Source: an uncultured Bacteroidia bacterium (lineage in GTDB: Bacteria; Bacteroidota; Bacteroidia; JANWVE01). Taken from it: a stretch of DNA of 35,974 nt. The notes beneath the pieces were generated by a model. That model was not told the DNA's origin. It worked only from the letters and a program-made list of their open reading frames with translations, and made no database searches. Both the position numbers and the translations under genes were made by a program. The stretch spans positions 1 through 35,974 of the forward strand of contig CALIZB010000159.1 of assembly GCA_938028625.1 (NCBI GenBank). The letters are read 5' to 3'. Shown piece by piece: positions 16,850 to 29,408 of the stretch. Each line of letters begins with the position of its first letter. The first letter of the stretch is position 1.

Positions 16850-17368
16850 TTAACAAAAAAATTTAGGAGGAGGAGAAATTAAAGGCAAACTTAAATCTTG
16901 TATTTTGTATTCAAAAGAGTAGTAACTATATGAACTGCTGAACGTAATAAAAGAGTATATTATTCCATTTATACAGTACTCTTTCCCTTCAAATTTTGGA
17001 TTGATTTTACTTTTTTCTGATTTTTCTTGGCTATTCTGTATAGTTTCAGAGAGGTTTTTTCGCAGTTTATGTTCTTTTTTATCTAAGTAAGCTGTGAGAT
17101 ATAAAAGTCCTTCACTTTGGGATATGCTCACAATATCGTACCATTCGTTTTGCCAAATAAACTCTTTTTGATTGATACGAATAAAGTTTTTATCTTGAGT
17201 AGAGATAACAAGCTGTTTAATATGTTTTGGATTTTTGTGACTCACTTTACGTTGGATAGTTTGATGGTGTATACTTAATTGTAGTAAAGCTATGGCTGTA
17301 TGGATAAAAATATAAAATATCCATACAGATAAAGTGAAATAGGCTATGATTTTTGAGTAATCAAACAT
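16850..17368 (-). CDS. Small inner-membrane protein, probably linked to the TonB receptor
   Basis: 172 residues. One N-terminal membrane helix (about 8-32) is followed by a mostly extramembrane part. The central segment reads KEFIWQNEWYDIVSIS, then a Leu/Tyr strand and LDKKEHKL. From memory this matches a set of uncharacterised Bacteroidota proteins with an EF-x-x-x-G-x-MYDIV ... D-K-E pattern and a PPPK tail, often found beside TonB receptors; here the end is PPPKFFC. This is the reason to group it with the receptor 159 bp downstream rather than with the cytoskeletal-type cluster upstream. It has its own -7 box 7 bp before the ATG. Function unknown. Confidence 0.7.
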   Translation of the reverse strand: MFDYSKIIAYFTLSVWIFYIFIHTAIALLQLSIHHQTIQRKVSHKNPKHIKQLVISTQDKNFIRINQKEFIWQNEWYDIVSISQSEGLLYLTAYLDKKEHKLRKNLSETIQNSQEKSEKSKINPKFEGKEYCINGIIYSFITFSSSYSYYSFEYKIQDLSLPLISPPPKFFC

Positions 17369-17427: not shown

Positions 17428-18177
17428 TTATACTTTTTTTAATACTTTTTTTATCTCTTGAATTTTTTTATTGCATGCTTCAATCTGTTTTTTTAACTGT
17501 TGTATTGAAGCATTTTCTATATTTACTTTTTCCTTTATCTCTTTTTTAGATGGCTCTTCTGCTTCTTTTAGAGGTGTTTTGGTTTCTTTTTCCACTCGCT
17601 GTCTTATACCCTTCATATAGAATACAAAAAAAGAAAACAAGAGAGAGACAAAAGCTACACCTATAATACCCCAGGTTAGACCATCAAAATTTTTGAAGTA
17701 ACTATGTTTTTTACTACTTTCCTCATTTTTTTGTTCTTCCTGGCTATCAGAATTTCTCTGTTGTAATATGTTTCTAATTTCATGCTCAAAATTTTTTTCA
17801 ATTTTATATTTGTATTTTATTAGATTATCATACCTATCATTTTTGTTAAAGTTGTCTATATCAATAACTTTGCTGTCATCCCAATTTAGAGTAAATATTT
17901 GAACATAGTCTTTTATAGTACGTATTTTTTGTATATCTTTTGCTTCATAATCTATGGCTTTTGCAAATCTCTTAATTTGATATTCAGCTATTTCATCATT
18001 CTTTGCTAAACTTTCCATTCGTACCTTCCAGTATTGAGTAGCTTTTTTTAAGGCATCAGGATTAGGATAATCATTCACATCTTGAGCTAATATAAACTCA
18101 ATAGAAGAGAAAAAAAGGATTATACAAATAGATGTTAATGTTCTAAATAAAAGGTTAGGCAAAGAAATATTATGCAT
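17428..18177 (-). CDS. Membrane-anchored coiled-coil protein, paralogue of the gene at 20722-21849
   Basis: 249 residues. Signal peptide 1-31 (ends IEFILAQ), extracytoplasmic helical domain about 36-140, acidic linker, one membrane helix (about 167-190) and a charged cytoplasmic tail with a coiled coil at 225-249. The extracytoplasmic domain is plainly homologous to that of the 375-residue protein: both have PDALKKAT or PEALKKAT, then YWK..M..L.KNDE, then IR.IK.YV.IFTL.WD. It lacks the C-terminal domain of its paralogue. It is the last gene of the cluster, 117 bp after the MotB/ZorB-like gene, with its own promoter box. Function unknown; homology to a gene beside the motor pair suggests a role in the same machine. 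Confidence 0.8.
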   Translation of the reverse strand: MHNISLPNLLFRTLTSICIILFFSSIEFILAQDVNDYPNPDALKKATQYWKVRMESLAKNDEIAEYQIKRFAKAIDYEAKDIQKIRTIKDYVQIFTLNWDDSKVIDIDNFNKNDRYDNLIKYKYKIEKNFEHEIRNILQQRNSDSQEEQKNEESSKKHSYFKNFDGLTWGIIGVAFVSLLFSFFVFYMKGIRQRVEKETKTPLKEAEEPSKKEIKEKVNIENASIQQLKKQIEACNKKIQEIKKVLKKV

Positions 18178-18212
18178 AGCATTGAACTTACATAAAGACT
18201 TATTTTTGGTTA

Positions 18213-18220
18213 CAAAGTTA
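18213..18220 (-). promoter_or_regulatory. -7 box of the gene at 17428-18177
   Basis: Reads TAACTTTG on the minus strand, 35 bp upstream of the ATG. Together with the 117-bp gap it suggests that the last cluster gene can be expressed apart from the upstream operon. Confidence 0.4.
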
Positions 18221-18294
18221 TGGGTTTTATTGATTTTTTAATTCACCTTTAATCTATCAAAATTTTTTTACTTTTTGGTATTTTAGCTATTTCA

Positions 18295-18978
18295 CTATTT
18301 TTTATCATTGAAAAACTCATTGTAGCTAATATAAGGTGTAAGATATACTATAATTTTTTGGTCATCTTCAGGTCGTGTATAGCTGTTTAATCTTCCCCAA
18401 CCACGTTTATCTTCTCCACTTCCAACGATTTGAATTTTGCAGGTAAGTTCTCTATTGTGCCTGTCAATTTTTTCCCTCAAATCATAATTATCATACCAAA
18501 TTTTGTACACTTCTAATGCTCTATTGTAGCTTAATTGATCATTAAGCTTATAACCATCTTTAGATGCCATACCTTCAATAATAAGCATATATTGAGAGTT
18601 TTTATATTTCGTAGTTAATTTTTGTATCATATTGAATAGTTTATTGCCTACGGATAGCAAATATCCTATATCATCAGAGTTTTTTATGCGATGGTCAGCG
18701 TAACCGAATTTAATTTGTCTTTTGAGTTCAAAACGTCTATACTTATTGTTATATTTTAGTTCCCTTGAACTCTCTAATTCTTTCATATCATTTTCTATGT
18801 TTCTCATAATGCTATCCCTATATTCAACTTGCTTTTTTCTTTGATTAATCTCTTTTATTTTTTTTTGGTTATTGATATAAAAGATAACAAACAGCACTAA
18901 TGAAATAAAAAACATGCTCGTCATAAAGTCGGAATAACCAATCCAAAAAGTATGTTCATGCTTAGTTGACTTTATCAT
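18295..18978 (-). CDS. MotB/ZorB-like stator protein with OmpA-like domain
   Basis: 227 residues. The short cytoplasmic N-terminus leads straight into a single membrane helix, FWIGYSDFMTSMFFISL and onward (11-34). This matches the MotB/ZorB pattern W-x-x-x-x-ADFMTAM, and Asp17 sits at the position of the ion-path aspartate. A helical linker (40-90) follows. The OmpA-like domain (about 100-220) has LIIEGMASKDG, then the core N-DQLSYNRALEVYKIW and IVGSGEDKRGWGR; the usual late NRR segment is replaced by EDDQKIIVYL. Such domains hold peptidoglycan so that the partner rotates or moves against it. It lies 25 bp after the MotA/ZorA-like gene, as expected for such a pair. Confidence is high for the family and low for the process served. 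Confidence 0.88.
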   Translation of the reverse strand: MIKSTKHEHTFWIGYSDFMTSMFFISLVLFVIFYINNQKKIKEINQRKKQVEYRDSIMRNIENDMKELESSRELKYNNKYRRFELKRQIKFGYADHRIKNSDDIGYLLSVGNKLFNMIQKLTTKYKNSQYMLIIEGMASKDGYKLNDQLSYNRALEVYKIWYDNYDLREKIDRHNRELTCKIQIVGSGEDKRGWGRLNSYTRPEDDQKIIVYLTPYISYNEFFNDKK

Positions 18979-19003
18979 ATTTTTATCTAAAAAGAACTCA
19001 ATG

Positions 19004-20725
19004 TTAATTATGATTTATATTATTTTTATCATTATCGTTATTATCATCCATAGAATATTTACTTAACATAGTTTTTATTTTTTTATTGGATATTGGAAGT
19101 AATGTTTTAGCTTTTTCAATTTGGACTTCATTTTGTAAAAGTAGTAATTCTTTTATTTTTATGATTTCTTCTAATTGCATAATTAGTTGTTTATTCAGTA
19201 GAATTTGAGTTTCACTAATAGGTTCTAAATATTGTAGGTTCTGTATAGAATAAGCAGAGTGTTCTTTTTTCAAGAAATTTGTCATTTCTGCTTCCTCTTC
19301 TTTTAGAACTTGTAATCTTCTTTCAATAAACTCAGACATTTTCTTAAACTCTTTCTCTACGTTTTGTAGAGTTTCAGGTATGATATTATTAAGTTTATTA
19401 AGCGTTTCTACCATTTCTTGTTTGGTATTAGATACGTCTTGTTGATATTTAGAGCTTATTTCTTGATATATCGCTATAACTTGACTATAAGTTTTCTCGT
19501 ATTCCGCGCTTAGATTATTCATAAATTTTGTAAAAGTTTCATTTGACACCCTCATCATAACTTTATGAGTGTTTGACAGTTCTTCAATTTCTTTCAATTG
19601 TGTATTTATGAATTCTATAATACCTTCTACAGCGACTATTCTTTTATCTAGATGATTAGCTATTTCATGGATTCTACCAGTTGATATCAAAGTTTTATCT
19701 AATACCTCTACTATACGACTTGTTGTTTTAAGCATATCATTTAGATTATCTATGTATGCTGTGAATTTGTCAAATTTTTCAAGAGCAAGTGTGAGTTTAG
19801 ACATTATGTTGAGATTAGCCTGTGTAATATCACTGATTTTAGTATTATTGATAGTATTGATGAGTTCAGCTTGTTTTTCTATCGTTGAGTAGGTTTTGTC
19901 TACAACTTTATTGATATTATCACTACTTTTTTGAAAATAATCAGCGTTTTTATTTGCTACTTCAAAAAATCTTTTTGTGTTTTGGTCAAATTCACTATTA
20001 AACTGTAATAAGCTACGTTGTAGTTGTGTAAATGTATCTGTCATGCTTTCATTGATTACAGGCATAATTTCTATTTGAAGCAGTGAAACAAGGTCATTTT
20101 TATTTTTTTCTTGTGTATGAATAGCTTTTGGTAAAAGCATATAAGCTAATATAGTGGTAAACACTAAACCTAACCCACTTGTAAACATGGTATATCCGAC
20201 CTCTTGAAGAAATCTCTGAACATTATCTTCAACTAAGAATTGAACAAGTTCGCCATATATAAAGCTAACAACAATGCATGTTATTGTACCTATCAAACCT
20301 AGGTATAATGGAGCATAAATGTAAGTATATGCTTCTTCTCGTAATTCGTTTAATTTTCTTTCAATTAAACTATTTATAATGTTAAACTCTGCTATGGAGT
20401 TATGATTACGTACTAAGTAGATATTTATGTCATTTATGAGTTTTTGAAAGTATTCTGAACTTTCGTGCTGTTGCTCGAGCAAATGTATCTCTACTGTATC
20501 CAGTAAATCTTTATTGCTATGAGCAACTTCTTGATACTGGTTTATGTTAGTGATAATGTCAGGAATCTTATCGTGTACAAGGTCTATCTTCAAAACTATG
20601 TATTTTTTTATGAGTATATTATCACTATCAGGAATAAAGTTTTTGAGTTTTATTATTGAGTTATTAGAGATTAGTAAAGCTATAAGTTGAAAAATACAAA
20701 TGAAAATTATTATGTAAGTTATCAT
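19004..20725 (-). CDS. MotA/TolQ/ExbB-superfamily channel protein with long coiled-coil tail (ZorA-like)
   Basis: 573 residues. Membrane helix 1 at 3-19, a cytoplasmic helical stretch (20-135), helix 2 at about 137-160 with LGLIGTITC (equivalent to the GLLGTV of ExbB/TolQ) and helix 3 at about 178-199 with TSGLGLVFTTILAY (the TGLGL-type pore helix). From 205 to the end is almost continuous helix with heptad character, low in Pro and Gly, ending in an Asn/Asp-rich tail. A pore module with a cytoplasmic tail of roughly 370 residues is the architecture of ZorA of Zorya systems, not of MotA, GldL or ExbB. It overlaps the preceding gene by 4 bp (ATGA) and precedes the MotB/ZorB-like gene, so the two should form an ion-driven motor unit. 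Confidence 0.87.
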   Translation of the reverse strand: MITYIIIFICIFQLIALLISNNSIIKLKNFIPDSDNILIKKYIVLKIDLVHDKIPDIITNINQYQEVAHSNKDLLDTVEIHLLEQQHESSEYFQKLINDINIYLVRNHNSIAEFNIINSLIERKLNELREEAYTYIYAPLYLGLIGTITCIVVSFIYGELVQFLVEDNVQRFLQEVGYTMFTSGLGLVFTTILAYMLLPKAIHTQEKNKNDLVSLLQIEIMPVINESMTDTFTQLQRSLLQFNSEFDQNTKRFFEVANKNADYFQKSSDNINKVVDKTYSTIEKQAELINTINNTKISDITQANLNIMSKLTLALEKFDKFTAYIDNLNDMLKTTSRIVEVLDKTLISTGRIHEIANHLDKRIVAVEGIIEFINTQLKEIEELSNTHKVMMRVSNETFTKFMNNLSAEYEKTYSQVIAIYQEISSKYQQDVSNTKQEMVETLNKLNNIIPETLQNVEKEFKKMSEFIERRLQVLKEEEAEMTNFLKKEHSAYSIQNLQYLEPISETQILLNKQLIMQLEEIIKIKELLLLQNEVQIEKAKTLLPISNKKIKTMLSKYSMDDNNDNDKNNINHN

Positions 20726-21849
20726 GATTTTTTTTCATTAAAATAAAGTGTTATTTTTTTAGTTACAATCCATTTATCATCTTGTAATTGTACTTCGCCT
20801 TCCTCAGCATGAGATAGCTTGTTGGTATCATACTCTTTCCATCCGTATTTTTGGACTAAATTATTCATGAGTGTTTTATCATGAAAGGTAATAATAGTGT
20901 TTATATTATCACGGTATAAGCTAAGAGTGCCTTTCTTACCATCTTTTGTAAATATAACATAGCAGGTGTCTTCATCAGCAGATAGCTTATGATTTTTATG
21001 GTTTATACCTTCTTGATCAATGCTTGGAATACCATAATAATAAAAAGTACTATCATTGCTTGGCTTTTTTTCTTGTATGCTAACTTGTTTTGATATTTCT
21101 ATTTGATTTTCCTCTGTTTTTTTCATGTTTTCAAGTCTTTCTAGTTTCTTTTGTATATTTTGTATATCTTGTAAGATTTTGTTTTCCGACTCTTGTTGCG
21201 GGGGTATTTTTTGAATATTATCATAACTTGCATTTTTTTGACTTTTTTGCCGTTTAACTTGTATGTAAGCAAGTAAAGAAAAAACAAGTGCAGTAATAGC
21301 TATGCCTATGGTTAAGTAGAATAATAGGTTTGTGGAGAGTGTAGATTTTTCATTCTTTTTTTTATTCTCTGTTTTGGTCTCATCAGTTTTATTTTGTTCA
21401 ACTTTTATATCTTCTGATTTATTATCAACTTTTTCCTTTTTTAGTATTTTGTTAATTGTATCTTTGAGTTCATTGAGTTCATTGGTAATTTTATTTTTGT
21501 AGTCTTTTAGACTTTTGTAGTTATTGTTGAATTTATCCGCATCTTTGATTTTATTTTTATCCCAGTCTAGTGTAAATATTGCAACATATTCTTTTATGGG
21601 GCGTATTTCATTTTCTGGTTTTGTTTCTTCTTCTCGTTTTTTTGCTAATTGACCAATCTCTTTTTTAAGATTTTCATCATTTTTTACTAAGTTATTCATG
21701 TGTTCTTTCCAGTATTCTGTAGCTTTTTTCAGTGCTTCGGGGGTAGGGCAATCATCAGATTTTTCCTGTGCAAAAACATTGGTTGACAGGATAAGGAAAG
21801 ATACTACTCCAGCACACAATAAGACTCTATATAAGAATAAACGCATCAT
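20722..21849 (-). CDS. Membrane-anchored coiled-coil protein with extra C-terminal domain
   Basis: 375 residues from ATG 21849 (ATG 21846 also possible; a TTG at 21855 is less likely). Signal peptide to about 28 (TNVFAQ), extracytoplasmic helical domain about 34-137 homologous to the protein at 17428-18177, a Lys/Glu-rich linker, one membrane helix (about 173-198), coiled coil (about 220-248) and a C-terminal globular domain (about 268-373: beta-rich, with TKDGKKGTLSLY and DDKWIVTKKITLYF). So part faces the periplasm and the larger part the cytoplasm, where it could contact the tail of the ZorA-like protein or the actin/tubulin-like proteins. The stop overlaps the next start (ATGA), implying translational coupling to the motor gene. 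No family recognised. Confidence 0.82.
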   Translation of the reverse strand: MMRLFLYRVLLCAGVVSFLILSTNVFAQEKSDDCPTPEALKKATEYWKEHMNNLVKNDENLKKEIGQLAKKREEETKPENEIRPIKEYVAIFTLDWDKNKIKDADKFNNNYKSLKDYKNKITNELNELKDTINKILKKEKVDNKSEDIKVEQNKTDETKTENKKKNEKSTLSTNLLFYLTIGIAITALVFSLLAYIQVKRQKSQKNASYDNIQKIPPQQESENKILQDIQNIQKKLERLENMKKTEENQIEISKQVSIQEKKPSNDSTFYYYGIPSIDQEGINHKNHKLSADEDTCYVIFTKDGKKGTLSLYRDNINTIITFHDKTLMNNLVQKYGWKEYDTNKLSHAEEGEVQLQDDKWIVTKKITLYFNEKKS

Positions 21850-21892
21850 AAGCAATATTAAATTGAATTTTACTTTAATTTAAGGTTTGAGT

Positions 21893-24800
21893 TTAGTTAT
21901 TTTTATCTACGCGGTATCTATGATTAAGCCAATCTTGGATAATTCCCACGGGTATGTAGAAAAAGGCACTCTCGTCCATAAATTTATTTTCATCTAGCTC
22001 TTCTATTTTGCTTCTATAGTCATATCCAGTACTTATGAAGTCTCCGTAATATGGAATATTCTCTTTTATAGCATTCATGAAGCGTGCTACAATTGATTGA
22101 TTGATACCAAATAAATCTTGAAAATCAAGTTTTTGATGTAATGCCTCAAAAAAAGCATGGTATTTTTCCATTACCTTAATATATTCTTCAACAATTCCCT
22201 CTTCTTTGAACTCTTTCCATTGTAAAACTTCCTTACTCTCTATACCTGAGTAAGATTTTTTAATATCTTTTATGTCAGGTAGTTCTTCATCTTCAATATA
22301 AAGCCCTCCTTTAGCTGTAATTTCCTTGGGTATCTCGTTTTCTAGTATAACTTTGATAGGGTCCTTACTTTCTGGGTAAAAGTGCCTAAATATCTCAGAT
22401 ACATATTTTTCTCTAATTGTAGAAGATGAGGTCAGAATATTGAATGATTTAGAACCTGTACCACTGAAAAATATCTCAGAAGGAGGATTTATAGCATTAA
22501 ATTTAATTAGGTCTGCAATATGATAGATAATGTTAGTATAGTAGTATAAAAGAATAATTTTGAATTCAGGATCGTTTTTTAAGAGTTCTGAATAATTGAA
22601 TTCAGAGTCTTGGTTTTGTTTCTCTAAGGCGAATAATAAATTATTGAACTCAGTGCAATTATTTTCAGTTCTCTTAATGATTTCCAGATATTCTTTTGAA
22701 ATTTTTTTATCTAACTCAGTAGAATAGTATTTTGTTAAGAGATTGGAATTAGGTTTAGTATTATATCCAGAACCGAATATTATATTTCCTGCAAAATGAA
22801 AAGATGAGAAAAGAATAGGTTGGTTACCTTTGAACACATTTATGTCTGTAGTTCCCCCACCAATATCCACAGATACAGCAGGCTTTATAGAGCCGCTTTT
22901 TATCTTATTAGTATATTTGTAAAAATAAAAAGGTGCAAAGGACTCGGGAATACTTTTGCTTACAACCTCTTTCGAGAGGTGTCTTTTTATTGATTTGCTC
23001 CATATTTCTTCTAATTCTGTTCTTTGGTTCATTGTCATAACAGAAGGATAAAACCATATAATGTTAATACGGTCAGGTGAGTAATTTTTCTTAACTGCTA
23101 TGGATTTGATGTGAATTACAATCTCTTCTATGAATTTTTCTCTGTATTGTTTATTTTCTATGTTGTTATCTAGCCATTTTAGATTAGTTTTGTATCCTTC
23201 GCCGCCATATTTATGTTTTTGAGTATGGTACATCCATGCAATATTAAAACCTGATAGTGCTTGCATTTGTTTGCTTTCTGTAATTGCAGGACTTTTTTGT
23301 ATAACTGTTCTTGCAGGAAAGTGATATTCTTTTGTCTCTTTGGACTGGTTAGATAAAAAGAAGTGTAAATTTTGTGCAAGGTACTGGTCAGATAGTTCAA
23401 GTTTATCAGAGAAATCTTTAGCCATAAGAATTAAGCTACATTCTACAATTTCTTGGTAGGTAAGAGATTTAATATTAGCATTTTTACCTTCTTTGTATTC
23501 AATATGTGTGTTAGTTGTGCCGAAGTCTACGGAAAAATAGATTTTTTCCTCACCTCCCTCTGCACTGCGCCATTTAGGAATAACAATCCCACTGGCATTA
23601 TTTTCTATTAAATGTATTTTTACATAATCAAAGTCTTTTTCATGATTAAGAATATAATAAGTAATGCCCGCAAATTGATTTTCTGATTTACCTTTCTCTG
23701 TATGACATATTTCATATATTGGTTCTACGGTTTCTGTTGTTTCTTTGTAGAAGTAAGCCTTTATTTTTTGTCTATAGCGTTTATCTGCATCTATAAGTTG
23801 TACTCTATATTCTCCATTAGAAAGCTTAAATCCAGGGTAAATAGCAAGATTGACTTTTACAGATATAATAGCACCTTTATTTTCTTTTTCAGAAATATTT
23901 GGTTCTATATCTTTATGATAAGTTCGCATATAAGCAATAATTTTATCTTTCTGAATAGGAATCTTTAAATGAACTTCCACGGATTCTCCCACTCCTTCTT
24001 TTATTTCAAACATTTTTTTATCATTTTTTAGCGTTCTGTTAAGGTCGTCAATGGTAAAGTATTCGAAGAATGTAGATTTGAGGGGTATTAAATAACTTAC
24101 CTTATTATCAGATGATTTAGATACAAGATTGCCGTCTAAATAACTTTCTTTGTTAATCGGGTAGGGTAAGGAAATAAGATAAGGTTCCAAAAAATCGTCT
24201 ATCGTAAGATAAGGATAGAGGTGTGTTGTACCTGGTAATATTCTTTTCGATGTATCTGAAATGGGCGCCTTATAGGGTACAGTTATTTTTTCAGGGTCCC
24301 ATACATCTTCTACGTACATCAAAGAATCATTAAATCTTTCAACAGGCAAAACAAGTGGCAGTTTAGTTTTTGTAACATCTACTTTTCTGCTAGGTTGTAT
24401 TATAAAATCGCTATTCCTTATTTTACTGTCTTGACTTTCTATTCTTTGTTTAGGCAAATATACATCTTTAATAGGTTTTACATAATCATTTTCATTCTCA
24501 CCACATAGATAGTCAAATAAATCACCAAAACTATTTTCGTTATAATCGTAGATTTCACTATATAGGTTGTTATTAAAGTTTTTTATTTTTTCCTCTAAAC
24601 ATCTTTCTAAGTAATTCCACAGTAGCCTTGTAGAGCCTAATTCATGTAGTATTCTATATTTTTTGTATAGAGCATAAAAAGATTTGATAAATTGTTCTTC
24701 GCGCTCGTAAATTTGACAATAATCATCATCAAATAAGGTATCCTTACCAAAAGATATATCACGTAAACCTTGTTTTTGCAGATTATTAGGTGAAGGAAAG

Positions 24801-25312
24801 AATAAAGTTGCTGGTGAGGTACCACCTACAATAACATTGTCTATTTTAAGAATGTACAAGTCTTCTAACAAGTGAAAATTATAGGCTTTTTCATCTTGTG
24901 TTAAGTATAATTCAAGGGTCTTGGCAATTAGATAATGTTCTTTTGAGGCTTTTTTTAATCTTTCCATCTCTGTTTTTCTATTCCATCTGATAATCTTAAC
25001 CTTATGCTTATTAGATAGAAAGTCTTTGTTAAAAAAGGCTTGAGCAACATCTAGCATATCAGATATTGTCTTGTGGTATATAGTTTTACCATCTATGGGG
25101 AACCTTTTATCCTTAAACTTATTGAGTGCATCTACAACAATAGCCATGTTAGCAAAAGGTGAAGGAATAGAAGTAATTTTGTATAAGCTAGAACCTCCTG
25201 ACGGGTCCTTTATGTCATTTATTTCACTAGGTGTGTAACAATTAGGACTTTCTGTCCATCCTTCAATATTTTCAGTTCCTTTTTCAGTAATTCTAAATAT
25301 GATTTTGTTCAT
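21893..25312 (-). CDS. Actin/Hsp70-fold ATPase with large N-terminal extension
   Basis: 1139 residues, cytoplasmic, no signal peptide. The C-terminal half is an actin/Hsp70-type ATPase: phosphate-1 loop YFSVDFGTTNTHIEYK (592-607), a connecting segment INIIWFYPSVMT (749-760), phosphate-2 loop AVSVDIGGGTTDINVF (812-827), adenosine motif SEIFFSGTGSKSFNIL (945-960) and a late KEITAKGGLYI (996-1006). Residues 1-590 match nothing I know; they include a GGTSPATLFFPSPN segment (163-176) and several beta-rich stretches. Residues 1010-1139 are helical. It may be a distant relative of SrfB-like Hsp70-fold proteins, but I cannot confirm that. It lies 17 bp after the tubulin-like gene, so the two products should be made together. 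Confidence 0.87.
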   Translation of the reverse strand: MNKIIFRITEKGTENIEGWTESPNCYTPSEINDIKDPSGGSSLYKITSIPSPFANMAIVVDALNKFKDKRFPIDGKTIYHKTISDMLDVAQAFFNKDFLSNKHKVKIIRWNRKTEMERLKKASKEHYLIAKTLELYLTQDEKAYNFHLLEDLYILKIDNVIVGGTSPATLFFPSPNNLQKQGLRDISFGKDTLFDDDYCQIYEREEQFIKSFYALYKKYRILHELGSTRLLWNYLERCLEEKIKNFNNNLYSEIYDYNENSFGDLFDYLCGENENDYVKPIKDVYLPKQRIESQDSKIRNSDFIIQPSRKVDVTKTKLPLVLPVERFNDSLMYVEDVWDPEKITVPYKAPISDTSKRILPGTTHLYPYLTIDDFLEPYLISLPYPINKESYLDGNLVSKSSDNKVSYLIPLKSTFFEYFTIDDLNRTLKNDKKMFEIKEGVGESVEVHLKIPIQKDKIIAYMRTYHKDIEPNISEKENKGAIISVKVNLAIYPGFKLSNGEYRVQLIDADKRYRQKIKAYFYKETTETVEPIYEICHTEKGKSENQFAGITYYILNHEKDFDYVKIHLIENNASGIVIPKWRSAEGGEEKIYFSVDFGTTNTHIEYKEGKNANIKSLTYQEIVECSLILMAKDFSDKLELSDQYLAQNLHFFLSNQSKETKEYHFPARTVIQKSPAITESKQMQALSGFNIAWMYHTQKHKYGGEGYKTNLKWLDNNIENKQYREKFIEEIVIHIKSIAVKKNYSPDRINIIWFYPSVMTMNQRTELEEIWSKSIKRHLSKEVVSKSIPESFAPFYFYKYTNKIKSGSIKPAVSVDIGGGTTDINVFKGNQPILFSSFHFAGNIIFGSGYNTKPNSNLLTKYYSTELDKKISKEYLEIIKRTENNCTEFNNLLFALEKQNQDSEFNYSELLKNDPEFKIILLYYYTNIIYHIADLIKFNAINPPSEIFFSGTGSKSFNILTSSSTIREKYVSEIFRHFYPESKDPIKVILENEIPKEITAKGGLYIEDEELPDIKDIKKSYSGIESKEVLQWKEFKEEGIVEEYIKVMEKYHAFFEALHQKLDFQDLFGINQSIVARFMNAIKENIPYYGDFISTGYDYRSKIEELDENKFMDESAFFYIPVGIIQDWLNHRYRVDKNN

Positions 25313-25329
25313 AGTAGTAGGTATTATTT

Positions 25330-26826
25330 TTATCCTTTGTAATCTAATTGTTTATCTTGTATAATTTGCGCAGTAGCTCTATACATTAGCGAAATCAAAC
25401 GTTTGAAGTTAGATATGTCTTTTGAAAGTTCTTTTGACGACTTATTTAAGATATCATCAAAAGACTCGTAGTCTTTCATTCGTCTAAAAGAAAACAAACT
25501 AGAGCTTTTATGTGGAGTTATAGATTCTATTGATGAGAAAACTTCTTCTTTATTCTCTTCATCAATTTTGAAAGGTTTGAAAGCAACATGGTTCTCTGCC
25601 ATTTCCCTTAAATATTGATAATAAAGTTCTATGAATTCTTTCATGTCTTGGTATACAGGGTCGTTTGTGTTTATTTTTGTTTCGTCGAACCAAGGTGATT
25701 TTTTGTTAGATATTTTAGGTAATCTATCTGTAAAATAGCGTGTCATTAAGAAAAATTGTATGAGTTCATTTTGTATTTTTTTTCTGTCTTTATGGGATAA
25801 ACAAGTAAGAGTTAAATATGGTGTAGAAGTGCTATATGAGGCTGTACTATATTCTTTTTTACTCACTTCTTCATTTGTTGTAAAATCTGTATCCATAAAA
25901 TCAAAGATAGATAAGGCACTAGCAAACTCTATAAAATGAGCTTTATTTTCTTGTGTTCTTCCACCTTCTGAATTTTCATAGGTAGCACCGTTAGTATATC
26001 CTATGTAATAAATAGAGTTGAGTTGTTTGGTATGAATTATATTATTGTAGTAGTATTCAAGTGCAGATTTTGTTTTAGAAATAAAGGTGTTACTATTTAT
26101 TTTACTACTTTCTGTATTTTCTAGGTTAAAATAAGGAAGCACACTAATAGCACCGATAACAGCATCTTTAATATAGTTATGATTAGGTATTTTTTCATCT
26201 GGATTACGAAGGTTTTTCAATAATGTAGGAAATCCTGACGCACCTGTACCTCCAAAAATAGAACTTATAATAAATATGCGGTCACTTGAATTGAAAGAGC
26301 TAGCAAATAATTTAAAGTATTCCGCGTCAGAAAATTGATTAAGTACTATGCTTCCTATATTAGGGTTGCCTTTAAAGCCTACTTCAAGATTAGTTTCTAA
26401 ATTATCTTCTGAAAATAGCAAGCGAAGTAATGCTTGCGAACTTTCGGTCATTGTATTAAGATTGAGAAAATCTTTGAGGTTTTTATTTTGTATGTCCTGT
26501 ATCGTTTGGTGGAAACTGTTTTCTTCTATTGTAATAAGAGTTTTTAATCCATCTATATCGCCAGCAAAAGTTTGTATATTTTTTAATTTAAGCCTAAAAA
26601 AATTATTATCAGTGTGTTCTACATTATTTCGTATTCTATTGTAAAGTTTAATGAGTCTTATTGTTTTATTTAAATCTCCGTTACTGTTATCAGGGTCAAT
26701 AATGATAGGAATAATTGTATCAGAGTCATTTGAGTCAAATTTTACGCCTGCGGCAGCTAAAAATACAAGATGCTTAATTACTCTGGCTCCTGTACCTCCA
26801 ATGCCAAATAAAAATAACTTTGCCAT
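25330..26826 (-). CDS. Tubulin/FtsZ-superfamily GTPase-like protein
   Basis: 498 residues, no signal peptide. The N-terminus FLFGIGGTGARVIKHL (6-21) is the first nucleotide loop, followed by strand IIPIIIDPDNSNGD with an acidic ribose-contact position (about 38-51). IISSIFGGTGASGFP (186-200) is the tubulin signature loop (GGGTGSG-like). ENKAHFIEFASALSIFDF (293-310) resembles the central-helix/T7 region of divergent FtsZ-like families, in which acidic residues complete the GTPase site between subunits. The C-terminal 190 residues are helical and replace the usual FtsZ C-terminal domain and tail. This fits the divergent Tubulin_2/FtsZ-like families rather than FtsZ itself. It sits between a small membrane protein and the actin-fold ATPase, within one probable operon. 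Confidence 0.85.
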   Translation of the reverse strand: MAKLFLFGIGGTGARVIKHLVFLAAAGVKFDSNDSDTIIPIIIDPDNSNGDLNKTIRLIKLYNRIRNNVEHTDNNFFRLKLKNIQTFAGDIDGLKTLITIEENSFHQTIQDIQNKNLKDFLNLNTMTESSQALLRLLFSEDNLETNLEVGFKGNPNIGSIVLNQFSDAEYFKLFASSFNSSDRIFIISSIFGGTGASGFPTLLKNLRNPDEKIPNHNYIKDAVIGAISVLPYFNLENTESSKINSNTFISKTKSALEYYYNNIIHTKQLNSIYYIGYTNGATYENSEGGRTQENKAHFIEFASALSIFDFMDTDFTTNEEVSKKEYSTASYSTSTPYLTLTCLSHKDRKKIQNELIQFFLMTRYFTDRLPKISNKKSPWFDETKINTNDPVYQDMKEFIELYYQYLREMAENHVAFKPFKIDEENKEEVFSSIESITPHKSSSLFSFRRMKDYESFDDILNKSSKELSKDISNFKRLISLMYRATAQIIQDKQLDYKG

Positions 26827-26854
26827 ATTTGTAGTAATTTGAGGTTATATTGAA

Positions 26855-27292
26855 TTAAAAAGGTATTTTTCTATGATTGTTGCTAACAGATTTGAATAAC
26901 AATGCAAATATGAAGTATAAAATCAAATAGTAAAAAAGAACTGTAAATGCAAAGCCCCATGTGTCTCCATTTGTTATTTGCAGTTCTTTGCAATACATTT
27001 TATTAGTAATATCACTGCTTACCTTTAGAAAAGACCATAAGAAAGGCAACAAACCAGTTACAATTCCAACCATAGACCATTTACCTATACTAGTATACCT
27101 AGGCATATCTAATCCTTTGTAGTACAAAAAACTAGCTAAAAAAGAAACAAAAAGTATAACGAGTCCAATAGTATTGTAGAATGCGCCTGCGTCATAGGCT
27201 TTACATCTCATGTTAAAACCACGAAGATGCTCTCCTAAATCCTTACTATATAGGGACATTAACTCAAATATTGTTGCAAAAAGGTCTGTCAT
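26855..27292 (-). CDS. Three-helix inner-membrane protein
   Basis: 145 residues from ATG 27292, 4 bp after the upstream stop; an in-frame TTG at 27304 would overlap that gene by 8 bp and is less likely. An amphipathic N-terminal part (MTDLFATIFELMSLYSKDLG) with two Cys (30 and 101 overall) is followed by three membrane helices at about 40-58, 70-90 and 112-135, and a short basic tail. It has no recognisable family or catalytic motif. Encoded just before the tubulin-like gene, it is a candidate membrane anchor or adaptor for it, but this is inferred only from position. Confidence 0.75.
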   Translation of the reverse strand: MTDLFATIFELMSLYSKDLGEHLRGFNMRCKAYDAGAFYNTIGLVILFVSFLASFLYYKGLDMPRYTSIGKWSMVGIVTGLLPFLWSFLKVSSDITNKMYCKELQITNGDTWGFAFTVLFYYLILYFIFALLFKSVSNNHRKIPF

Positions 27293-27296
27293 ATGC

Positions 27297-28673
27297 TTAA
27301 TCAATAATAGTTAGTTTAAATAAAGTTTGCATGTTCCTGTTATTTTTTGCTAAATTATATATTAGTTCATAAAGTCCAAAAGTTTTTGTTTTTTCTTTTT
27401 CTAAATCATTGATATTAACAGAGTTATTTTCTATCCATTTTGGAAGTTCATTTATTTTAATACTAACTGTGAGATTGGTAGGAATAGGTTCTTCGCTCGT
27501 TATGATAAAATAATACTTATGCTTTTCGTTTTCTTTTTCTAACCGAATTTCTTTAATTGTATATTTTGGTTCAGACAACTGGTAATTTTTTTGGTTAGAT
27601 AAATAAGACTCACCATACAACACTTCAAGATTTTCCATTCCTAAGACTTCCAGAGTAAATTTTATTTGAGTAGGTTTTTTTATCTTTATTTTATTTTTCT
27701 CTTTTTTTTCTATCTCTACACCTTGAATATTATTTCTTCCTTGAAGTATTCTTGTATTTATAGATAAATCATTTATGCTACTGATAGAAATAAATTCTCC
27801 TATGCTCTCTTGATGTAAAAAATTCATTTTTTTAAGTTTTATTATTTGTTCAGGTTGTCCAATAAATAGCATATAAAAAGGACGTTGTATATTACTTAAC
27901 TGTGTTTTTTGATTATTACTATACCAAAAGTATCCATTAAAATCTACATTATAGCCAACAAGATAAAAACTTTTATTCTTTATATCTATTCCTTTAAGAA
28001 ATTCTAATACGTTTTTGGAGTTATCTTTATGGTTAGAGGTTATGAGGTCAGACGCTAGAACAACAACATTCTCTTTATCTGCTTTTTCAGCAATCTTGGG
28101 AATAAGCTTGTGAAATAAAGAACTTAATCCATTAGACTGTTTCAGTTCATCAGACAATTTGTCTTCTATGTATTCACTCAATTGACTTTTATTGTTAAAA
28201 CTATGTTGTTGAATACATTCTCCTTCAGAATTTAGTAAGCATATAAAAGTTTTATTTTTTTCAATAAGTTTAGTTACCTTATCAACTAAAATTCCATTCA
28301 TGGATTTAGACATGTCCATTTTTTCTTTCTTAATATAACCTTTGGTAAGGTCGCTACCGTCAATATAGATGTGATAATTTGTATTGATAGTTTCCCATAA
28401 GATTGTACAACCACATTCCGATTTAAGGTATTTAATAAACTCAACGCTATCTATCTCACCTGCTTTCTGACCTTGCCAAGGCTCATTAGTTATTTTCTTA
28501 TTTTTGCTGAATACCTTTTTGAACTCTTCATAATCTTGTATGGTTACTTGTTTATTATCACAGATGTTTTCAAGATTGCTATTCCATTTATTGCTATCTC
28601 CTCTCTGGCATGACACAGCTAGTAGTGACACAGCAACCCATAAATAGTGTTTGAAAGACGCTATTATTTTCAT
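27297..28673 (-). CDS. Lipoprotein with degenerate von Willebrand A-like domain
   Basis: 458 residues. Lipoprotein signal with Cys22 (SLLAVSC). A conserved-looking segment follows (45-95, including CGC at 87-89). From about 98 a vWA-like Rossmann fold appears: strand NYHIYIDGSDLTKGYIKK, in which DGSD sits where active vWA domains have DxSxS, then ENVVVLASDLITSN (201-214), the typical V-V-x-x-SD strand, and RPFYMLFIG (264-272). The MIDAS is therefore partial: D105 and S107 remain but the second Ser is missing. The rest (about 310-458) is beta-rich, probably Ig-like. It is likely to face the periplasm. Its stop is 4 bp from the next start. FtsZ-like/vWA pairings are known in other bacteria (Makarova and Koonin 2010, from memory). 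Confidence 0.78.
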   Translation of the reverse strand: MKIIASFKHYLWVAVSLLAVSCQRGDSNKWNSNLENICDNKQVTIQDYEEFKKVFSKNKKITNEPWQGQKAGEIDSVEFIKYLKSECGCTILWETINTNYHIYIDGSDLTKGYIKKEKMDMSKSMNGILVDKVTKLIEKNKTFICLLNSEGECIQQHSFNNKSQLSEYIEDKLSDELKQSNGLSSLFHKLIPKIAEKADKENVVVLASDLITSNHKDNSKNVLEFLKGIDIKNKSFYLVGYNVDFNGYFWYSNNQKTQLSNIQRPFYMLFIGQPEQIIKLKKMNFLHQESIGEFISISSINDLSINTRILQGRNNIQGVEIEKKEKNKIKIKKPTQIKFTLEVLGMENLEVLYGESYLSNQKNYQLSEPKYTIKEIRLEKENEKHKYYFIITSEEPIPTNLTVSIKINELPKWIENNSVNINDLEKEKTKTFGLYELIYNLAKNNRNMQTLFKLTIID

Positions 28674-28728
28674 GTTTGTTGTTATAGAAGAAAAAATTTT
28701 TGTAAAATTATATCAAAATAATCTAACA

Positions 28729-29391
28729 TCAAAACAATCTAATTACATTATTTTGATAATCTATTTCTACTCTTCCAAATCTAGATAGAGCACTCTGTCC
28801 GAGTAGTAATGGGGCACGCGCATTCTTAATTACAATTGCGTCTACATCACGTAGAATTTTATTTCCTACTTCTACTTGTCTTAATGTTATTTTTTTTGCG
28901 GTCAATGTATTTCCTGAAGCATCTTTATAGGTAACTTGCTCTTTTATATCACTTTGCTTAATACGCCTTTTTTTTGTCAATAACTGAAACTCTAACTCTG
29001 ATATAGAAATATCTGACGCACCTGTATCAAAGACAAAATCTAATTCTAATCCATTTATCCGTATAGGAATTTCATAAACTCCACTTTCTGTCTTGAACAT
29101 AGGTATCTCAACATATTCATTATTGTTCTGATCACGTTTTACAAGAACTTTTCTTCGTGTTTTTTTCTCCTCGTCATTATTATCATTCTCTTCTGTGTCA
29201 TCATCTTTTTCAATGATTACTTTGTTTAGTTCTTTTTCCTTTTTTATTTTTATATCATCATTATTTTCTTCTGCTTCCTGATGCTCTAACCGCCTTCCGG
29301 ATTTGCTACAACCCGCAGAAACAAATACTAAAAAGTAAGAAACTAATACAAGTAGTTGTAATAAAAAAATTACCTTTTTCATAAGATACAT
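28729..29391 (-). CDS. Lipoprotein with retroviral-type (clan AA) aspartic protease domain
   Basis: 220 residues from ATG 29391; ATG 29382 (MKKVIFLL) is an equally workable start, and a TTG at 29403 lies inside the promoter box. Lipoprotein signal with Cys28 (FVSAGC), then a very acidic, flexible stretch (about 35-85, rich in Asp, Glu and Asn). The protease domain covers about 92-220: VYEIPIRINGLELDFVFDTGAS with the catalytic Asp122 in DTGAS, and LLLGQSALSRFG near 195-206, as in the single-domain bacterial pepsin-retropepsin family that works as a dimer. It is the first gene of the cluster, 55 bp before the vWA-like lipoprotein. It may process a cluster protein in the periplasm, but no substrate is evident. 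Confidence 0.85.
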   Translation of the reverse strand: MYLMKKVIFLLQLLVLVSYFLVFVSAGCSKSGRRLEHQEAEENNDDIKIKKEKELNKVIIEKDDDTEENDNNDEEKKTRRKVLVKRDQNNNEYVEIPMFKTESGVYEIPIRINGLELDFVFDTGASDISISELEFQLLTKKRRIKQSDIKEQVTYKDASGNTLTAKKITLRQVEVGNKILRDVDAIVIKNARAPLLLGQSALSRFGRVEIDYQNNVIRLF

Positions 29392-29400
29392 TATTTTCTG

Positions 29401-29408
29401 CAAAGCTA
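29401..29408 (-). promoter_or_regulatory. -7 box at the head of the cluster
   Basis: Reads TAGCTTTG on the minus strand, 9 bp before ATG 29391. It is the only clear box ahead of the eight tightly spaced genes that follow, so it may drive about 11 kb of transcript. No -33 element at the right distance was found. Confidence 0.45.

Follow-up and report, generated by a model that had tools for sequence, protein, structure and literature searches.

The motor of Zorya binds peptidoglycan and has a long tail in the cytoplasm; it is proposed to sense envelope disturbance and to recruit nucleases (PMC11890865). FtsZl1 tubulin neighbourhoods with vWA and OmpA proteins were outlined by Makarova and Koonin in 2010 (PMC2875224), and a reviewer of that paper asked how a cytoplasmic tubulin works with periplasmic and outer-membrane partners. 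In the DO-GTPase/GAP1 conflict systems a constant NTPase core is combined with variable partners (Kaur et al. 2020, PMC7159879), and vWA proteins are also encoded with TolQR-like motors (PMC12204202). Here we analyse a contig of an uncultured Bacteroidia bacterium (CALIZB010000159.1, assembly GCA_938028625.1; the whole stretch of 35,974 nucleotides is called the window) that carries, at 17428-29391 on the minus strand, a cluster encoding an actin-fold protein, a tubulin-fold protein and a ZorAB-like motor. Its relatives share a constant core, to which exchangeable exported nucleases or proteases are attached. We tentatively favour the explanation that the core spans the envelope and works, in a Zorya-like manner and with its exported enzymes, on incoming phage DNA or ejection proteins.

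The cluster resembles Zorya (PMC11890865) in its ZorA- and ZorB-like subunits, long ZorA tail, invariant ZorB Asp, OmpA-like domain and nuclease-type partners, but it adds genes for actin-fold, tubulin-fold, vWA-like, three-helix membrane and coil proteins, and its enzymes are exported whereas those of Zorya are cytoplasmic. None of the ten window proteins gave a PADLOC match to ZorC/ZorD, ZorE or ZorF/ZorG; since the type-defining partner genes are absent, the cluster should not be called Zorya. It may well work like Zorya. With the FtsZl1 neighbourhoods, as given in the main text of PMC2875224, it shares the Pfam family range of the tubulin, the vWA, OmpA-family and other membrane proteins and also a kinase, the last in a sister cluster; the same main text has no actin partner, MotA/ZorA or exported enzymes, and the P-loop GTPase gene of those neighbourhoods is not found here. 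Tubulin and HSP70-family proteins occur with vWA proteins in the DO-GTPase/GAP1 systems too (PMC7159879), there as alternative themes, whereas here tubulin and actin stand together and are joined by a ZorAB motor and exported enzymes. No GTPase family was detected among window or accessory proteins, in searches that did not include the DO-GTPase/GAP1 models by name. As in the TolQR-like sets (PMC12204202), a vWA protein outside the inner membrane is encoded with a 5:2-type motor; there it is tethered by a transmembrane (TM) helix, while the protein of this cluster is predicted to be a lipoprotein and its gene is accompanied by those for actin and tubulin. In a literature search whose scope excluded subscription papers and supplements, we found no description of the tubulin-actin-ZorAB set with exported enzymes. 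The actin partner, the ZorAB identity and the variable exported enzymes beside the core are thus the features that we did not find described. It is unusual for an actin-fold and a tubulin-fold protein to be tied to one motor in one operon; with a motor of ZorAB type and a TM-coil protein encoded beside them, the question raised in 2010 gains a concrete physical link and becomes testable.

Gene order and conservation of the core

The open reading frame (ORF) calls agree with the initial annotation in giving nine co-directional genes, of which the first eight are tightly spaced. Along the gene order the gaps are 55, -8 (4 if a later ATG is used), 28, 17, 37, -4, 25 and 117 bp, so that genes 1-8 are separated by at most 55 bp or overlap slightly and gene 9 follows after 117 bp. 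The first gene starts with the ATG at 29391, or at 29403 if an upstream TTG is taken. GC content is 0.293 in the cluster and 0.351 in the flanks, and promoter and terminator scans stayed at chance level. The FtsZ of the same genome is separate and encoded on another contig.

Conservation was followed by scanning species genomes with the tubulin alignment, which gave at least 547 relatives; the best 80 were kept, and counts were made on the 62 loci with enough flank, so that the synteny figures describe the nearest members of the tubulin family and not the whole family. Seven genes recur in a fixed order, namely those for the vWA lipoprotein, the three-helix membrane protein, tubulin, actin, the coil protein and the ZorA-like and ZorB-like subunits. 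This core is complete in 44 of the 62 loci (29 of 39 outside Hymenobacter and its close kin), and the individual partners are present in 61 (vWA), 55 (three-helix protein), 61 (actin), 61 (coil), 58 (ZorA) and 51 (ZorB, with its OmpA-like domain) of them, with a median spacing of 5-20 bp between core neighbours. Because the order recurs in dozens of genomes, it is not due to chance, and the neighbour tabulation bears out the expectation that the gene set is conserved together elsewhere. The window actin matches 15 of the 395 class genomes searched; by family profiles these 15 genomes are also the ones that have both a strong actin and a strong tubulin hit, which lie on different contigs in one case. 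Carriers are nearly all Bacteroidota, among them the cultured Flavobacterium sandaracinum and Draconibacterium sediminis; misbinning may account for the single metagenome bins that are labelled Leptospiraceae, Sulfuricurvum, Acetatifactor and Oscillibacter.

Folds of the core proteins

The ZorB-like protein (18295-18978) matches PADLOC ZorB with E 1e-16, and its family profile finds the solved ZorB structures 8vvn (3e-15) and 8qyd (1e-8) well before MotB (0.01). It has one TM helix with Asp17 invariant in the alignment, followed by the OmpA-like domain of peptidoglycan-binding type. The ZorA-like protein (19004-20725) has a helical cytoplasmic tail of about 370 residues and matches PADLOC ZorA1 (7.5e-10); its profile aligns with the solved ZorA of 8qyy, 8vvn and 8qyd over TM3-TM4 at 6e-5 to 2e-4 (TolQ 0.016), a search in which coiled-coil chance matches also score, and the TM3/TM4 residues are conserved in the family. 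The MotA/MotB-type, ZorAB-like pair of the initial annotation is therefore nearest to solved ZorAB, ahead of TolQ and MotB. With 38 bits against the 400-bit cut-off of the NCBIfam ZorB1 equivalog, the ZorB-like protein is far below that level, and so we take the window pair as distant relatives of Zorya. As a separate observation, Kordia-like genomes have a further gene between those for the ZorA- and ZorB-like proteins, encoding a membrane protein of 580-616 residues that shows a vWA-like DRTGS motif (L047 17860-19710, L069 16725-18464, L073 17714-19471). At the ZorAB position of five other clusters lie single-TM proteins (L021 13605-15020, L022 13775-15358, L030 14551-15852, L027 13660-14706, L042 13497-14489); among the replacement TM proteins scanned, one has a WG repeat and one an SH3 domain.

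The actin-fold protein (21893-25312) has 1139 residues, with an N-terminal region of about 590 residues before the actin/Hsp70 domain. The motifs DFGTTNTH, DIGGGTTD and FSGTGSK are largely invariant across the family, and the AlphaFold model (mean confidence, pLDDT, 83) retrieves MreB/Mbl, Hsp70 and ParM in Foldseek with E of about 2e-8 and probability 1.0; a search of a viral structure library again returned Hsp70/actin-type matches. Phosphate-1, phosphate-2 and adenosine motifs are thus found together with the actin/Hsp70 fold that characterizes the actin superfamily, as had been proposed from the motifs. It may be noted that most genomes of the class have ORFs of 420-470 residues in which the actin profile picks up a short segment at phosphate-2; these are probably FtsA, and Pfam FtsA itself is a weak match in 9 of 14 aligned actin family members.

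For the tubulin-like protein (25330-26826), Pfam Tubulin is matched by all 14 aligned family members (best 3e-8) and Tubulin_2 (PF13809) by 13 of them (best 4e-10), which upholds the tubulin assignment, although the window copy alone falls below both cut-offs (22.8 bits for Tubulin_2 against a cut-off of 27). The motifs GGTG..R and SSIFGGTG..GFP are invariant, and by these sequence criteria the family is placed near FtsZl1/Tubulin_2. In some Hymenobacter loci the tubulin and actin genes are separated by an ORF of about 142 residues, which by eye resembles a small (REP-type) transposase (L061 11573-12001, L076 11561-11989, L078 11578-12006, L083 11565-11993).

The predicted vWA-like lipoprotein (27297-28673), probably periplasmic, was modelled with a pLDDT of 84, and its top fold matches are the vWA domains of TFIIH Ssl1/p44, Rpn10 and PilB, at E of only 5e-3 to 5e-2. 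The family carries a MIDAS-like motif, ExSxSM with an invariant Asp, in place of which the window copy has DGSDL; a lipobox is recognised by a simple rule in 73 of 90 members. The vWA fold named in the initial annotation is therefore moderately supported. The neighbouring gene (26855-27304), conserved in order, encodes a membrane protein for which hydropathy predicts three TM helices. In the coil protein (20722-21855), hydropathy suggests a signal peptide, a periplasmic part of about 150 residues and one TM helix, followed by the coil and a C-terminal cytoplasmic domain; this last domain is conserved across loci and is missing from the paralogue at 17428-18177, which aligns with the coil protein at 32% identity (E 1e-30), in line with the two paralogous membrane coiled-coil proteins noted earlier. 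The duplication is restricted to some loci, others being L042, L055, L075, L080 and L098. No credible family in Pfam, NCBIfam or PADLOC was found for the coil proteins, the three-helix protein or the window vWA protein, and the coil family profile gave only coiled-coil or chance matches in the PDB. Neither the fold searches above nor the neighbour tabulation refuted the reading first made of the cluster.

Exported enzymes beside the core

In about 24 of the 55 named loci outside Hymenobacter, zorB is directly followed, often with an overlap, by genes for exported enzymes whose folds are unrelated; many of the other loci are truncated by contig ends. The adjoining enzymes are trypsin-like (12), retropepsin-like (11), SNase (6), DNase I-like (4), NUC1-type (2) and transglutaminase-like (2). 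The enzyme of the window, encoded upstream of the core (28729-29391), is a lipoprotein and an aspartic protease of retropepsin-like type (clan AA), identified by gag-asp_proteas (2e-16), TIGR02281 (above its cut-off) and the motif FDTGAS; the same family follows zorB in other loci. The domain models thus confirm the identity given to this protein at the outset, which is however a variable accessory enzyme and effector candidate, not a part of the core. The active-site motifs GSSG, DTGA, DGDT, GDFN/SDH and RGH are kept in nearly all of the exported enzymes, the exceptions, in which some are missing, being a fragment of an SNase and a short DNase I-like protein.

An N-terminal hydrophobic segment is present in all 36 enzymes examined, and the simple rule recognises a lipobox in 33 of them. 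Within ten residues after the lipid cysteine, Lys and Arg number 2.45 on average in the enzymes; the mean for 110 other lipoproteins encoded at these loci is 1.09 (p 1e-10 by Mann-Whitney test, uncorrected for relatedness). Only one enzyme has two or more acidic residues at its mature start, where the surface-exported lipoproteins of the phylum carry an acidic signal (PMC5080379). For a shared SGR pattern following the lipid cysteine the counts were 8 of 46 against 2 of 129, the general basic enrichment being the safer statement. On the tubulin tree, three enzyme classes require at least 8 changes over 27 labelled loci.

Downstream of exported enzymes a small membrane protein recurs (L052 19871-20200, L059 18513-18827, L070 19896-20249, L107 19639-21042), and in some Flavobacteriaceae DnaJ-domain proteins are encoded there (L052 20214-21386, L080 19297-21062). 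DUF6804 is matched by five accessory proteins.

Function, competing explanations and flanking genes

In the explanation that we favour, an ion-driven motor of ZorA5B2 type, probably anchored to peptidoglycan, would sit in the inner membrane with its long tail in the cytoplasm, where the actin-fold ATPase and tubulin-fold GTPase would be held at the membrane by the three-helix and TM-coil proteins; the periplasm would contain the vWA lipoprotein, the coil protein's N-terminal part and, as effectors, the protease and nuclease lipoproteins. A disturbance of the envelope, for example the ejection of phage DNA, would be sensed by the motor; the complex would then be switched on by ion flow together with NTP-driven assembly, with actin and tubulin supplying the NTP-dependent assembly or switch, and the periplasmic enzymes, concentrated or activated at the complex, would cut incoming DNA or ejection proteins. 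That the products form a trans-envelope machine is quite probable, whereas a role in conflict or defence is about evenly poised; we infer that actin, tubulin and motor may assemble into one complex. A narrower version, in which an outward-facing Zorya-like immune machine physically couples its motor to co-assembling actin and tubulin and, while phage DNA is being ejected, attacks it with tag-sorted, interchangeable nucleases and proteases of the periplasm, is possible but doubtful. The initial annotation had already proposed a trans-envelope ion-motor machine with cytoplasmic NTP-binding proteins; the folds and the conservation of the gene set agree with it, but it was incomplete, as the protease is exchangeable and the tubulin, vWA and OmpA-family part had been outlined in 2010 (PMC2875224). 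If the defence reading is true, motor-based immunity gains a layer of periplasmic enzymes in one of the major bacterial phyla.

Several lines bear on this choice. The fixed seven-gene order and the shared genomes support a constant core; the motor nearest to solved ZorAB, together with the envelope sensing and nuclease recruitment proposed for Zorya (PMC11890865), supports the outward Zorya-like reading; and the kept active sites, the shared basic N-terminus and the repeated class changes support exchangeable effectors. The patchy distribution within the genus, the lower GC content (core below flank in 44 of 60 loci outside Hymenobacter) and sister clusters are also counted in its favour. One congener (91% complete) lacks the cluster, and in the other congener it is found among different genes. 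The sister clusters combine a divergent tubulin-actin pair with genes for a lipoprotein-like and a small TM protein, coil and ZorAB being replaced: L166 (3917-14650) has genes for TerD (1e-43) and OmpA (8e-16) proteins in their place, L165 (990-10840) a Ser/Thr kinase gene (5e-19) and L169 (351-11433) genes for GYF and TPR proteins. It may be that the tubulin-actin pair is the older unit and that its outputs include the ZorAB branch. A further sister cluster is at L168 3465-10491.

Other observations weigh against a defence machine. No ZorAB was found in clusters L021, L022, L027, L030 and L042, which have other TM proteins in its place; in Hymenobacter the cluster is at a fixed place with no GC shift and no adjoining exported-enzyme gene; the tubulin tree largely follows families, which suits a housekeeping role better; and among sampled flank genes there were only a few type I restriction-modification and integrase genes, a background rate for comparison being lacking. 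GC shift, patchiness and flank genes are mixed evidence for a defence-island habit. The fixed Hymenobacter location and the tree instead suit envelope or membrane remodelling of the kind proposed for FtsZl1 neighbourhoods, whereby tubulin and actin would build or position a membrane-bound structure, the motor would exert force across the envelope and periplasmic enzymes would trim proteins or clear debris. A tubulin near FtsZl1 with vWA and OmpA-family partners, as in PMC2875224, also fits, yet the swapped SNase, NUC1 and DNase I-like nucleases are left unexplained and occurrence in so few genomes of the class marks the cluster as dispensable, so that we regard remodelling as unlikely. It is less likely still that the motor drives uptake of DNA or protein through the outer membrane, to be digested in the periplasm for nutrition. 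The enzymes are of digestive type and predicted to face the periplasm, and related 5:2 motors power Ton import (PMC12204202), but the core has no conserved transporter, TonB-dependent receptor or substrate-binding protein beside it, and the actin and tubulin partners find no explanation. Delivery of the enzymes as toxins to neighbouring bacteria is very improbable: variable enzymes on a constant machine do resemble effector sets, but no immunity genes were recognised among the accessory genes and the basic lipoprotein N-termini are unlike the acidic surface-export signal of the phylum (PMC5080379).

Downstream of the cluster, a tenth minus-strand gene (16850-17368) encodes a small membrane protein of 172 residues, which was considered as a part of it and rejected. 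It is a flank gene, because its homologue adjoins the same TonB-dependent receptor in the congener G001, whose cluster lies elsewhere.

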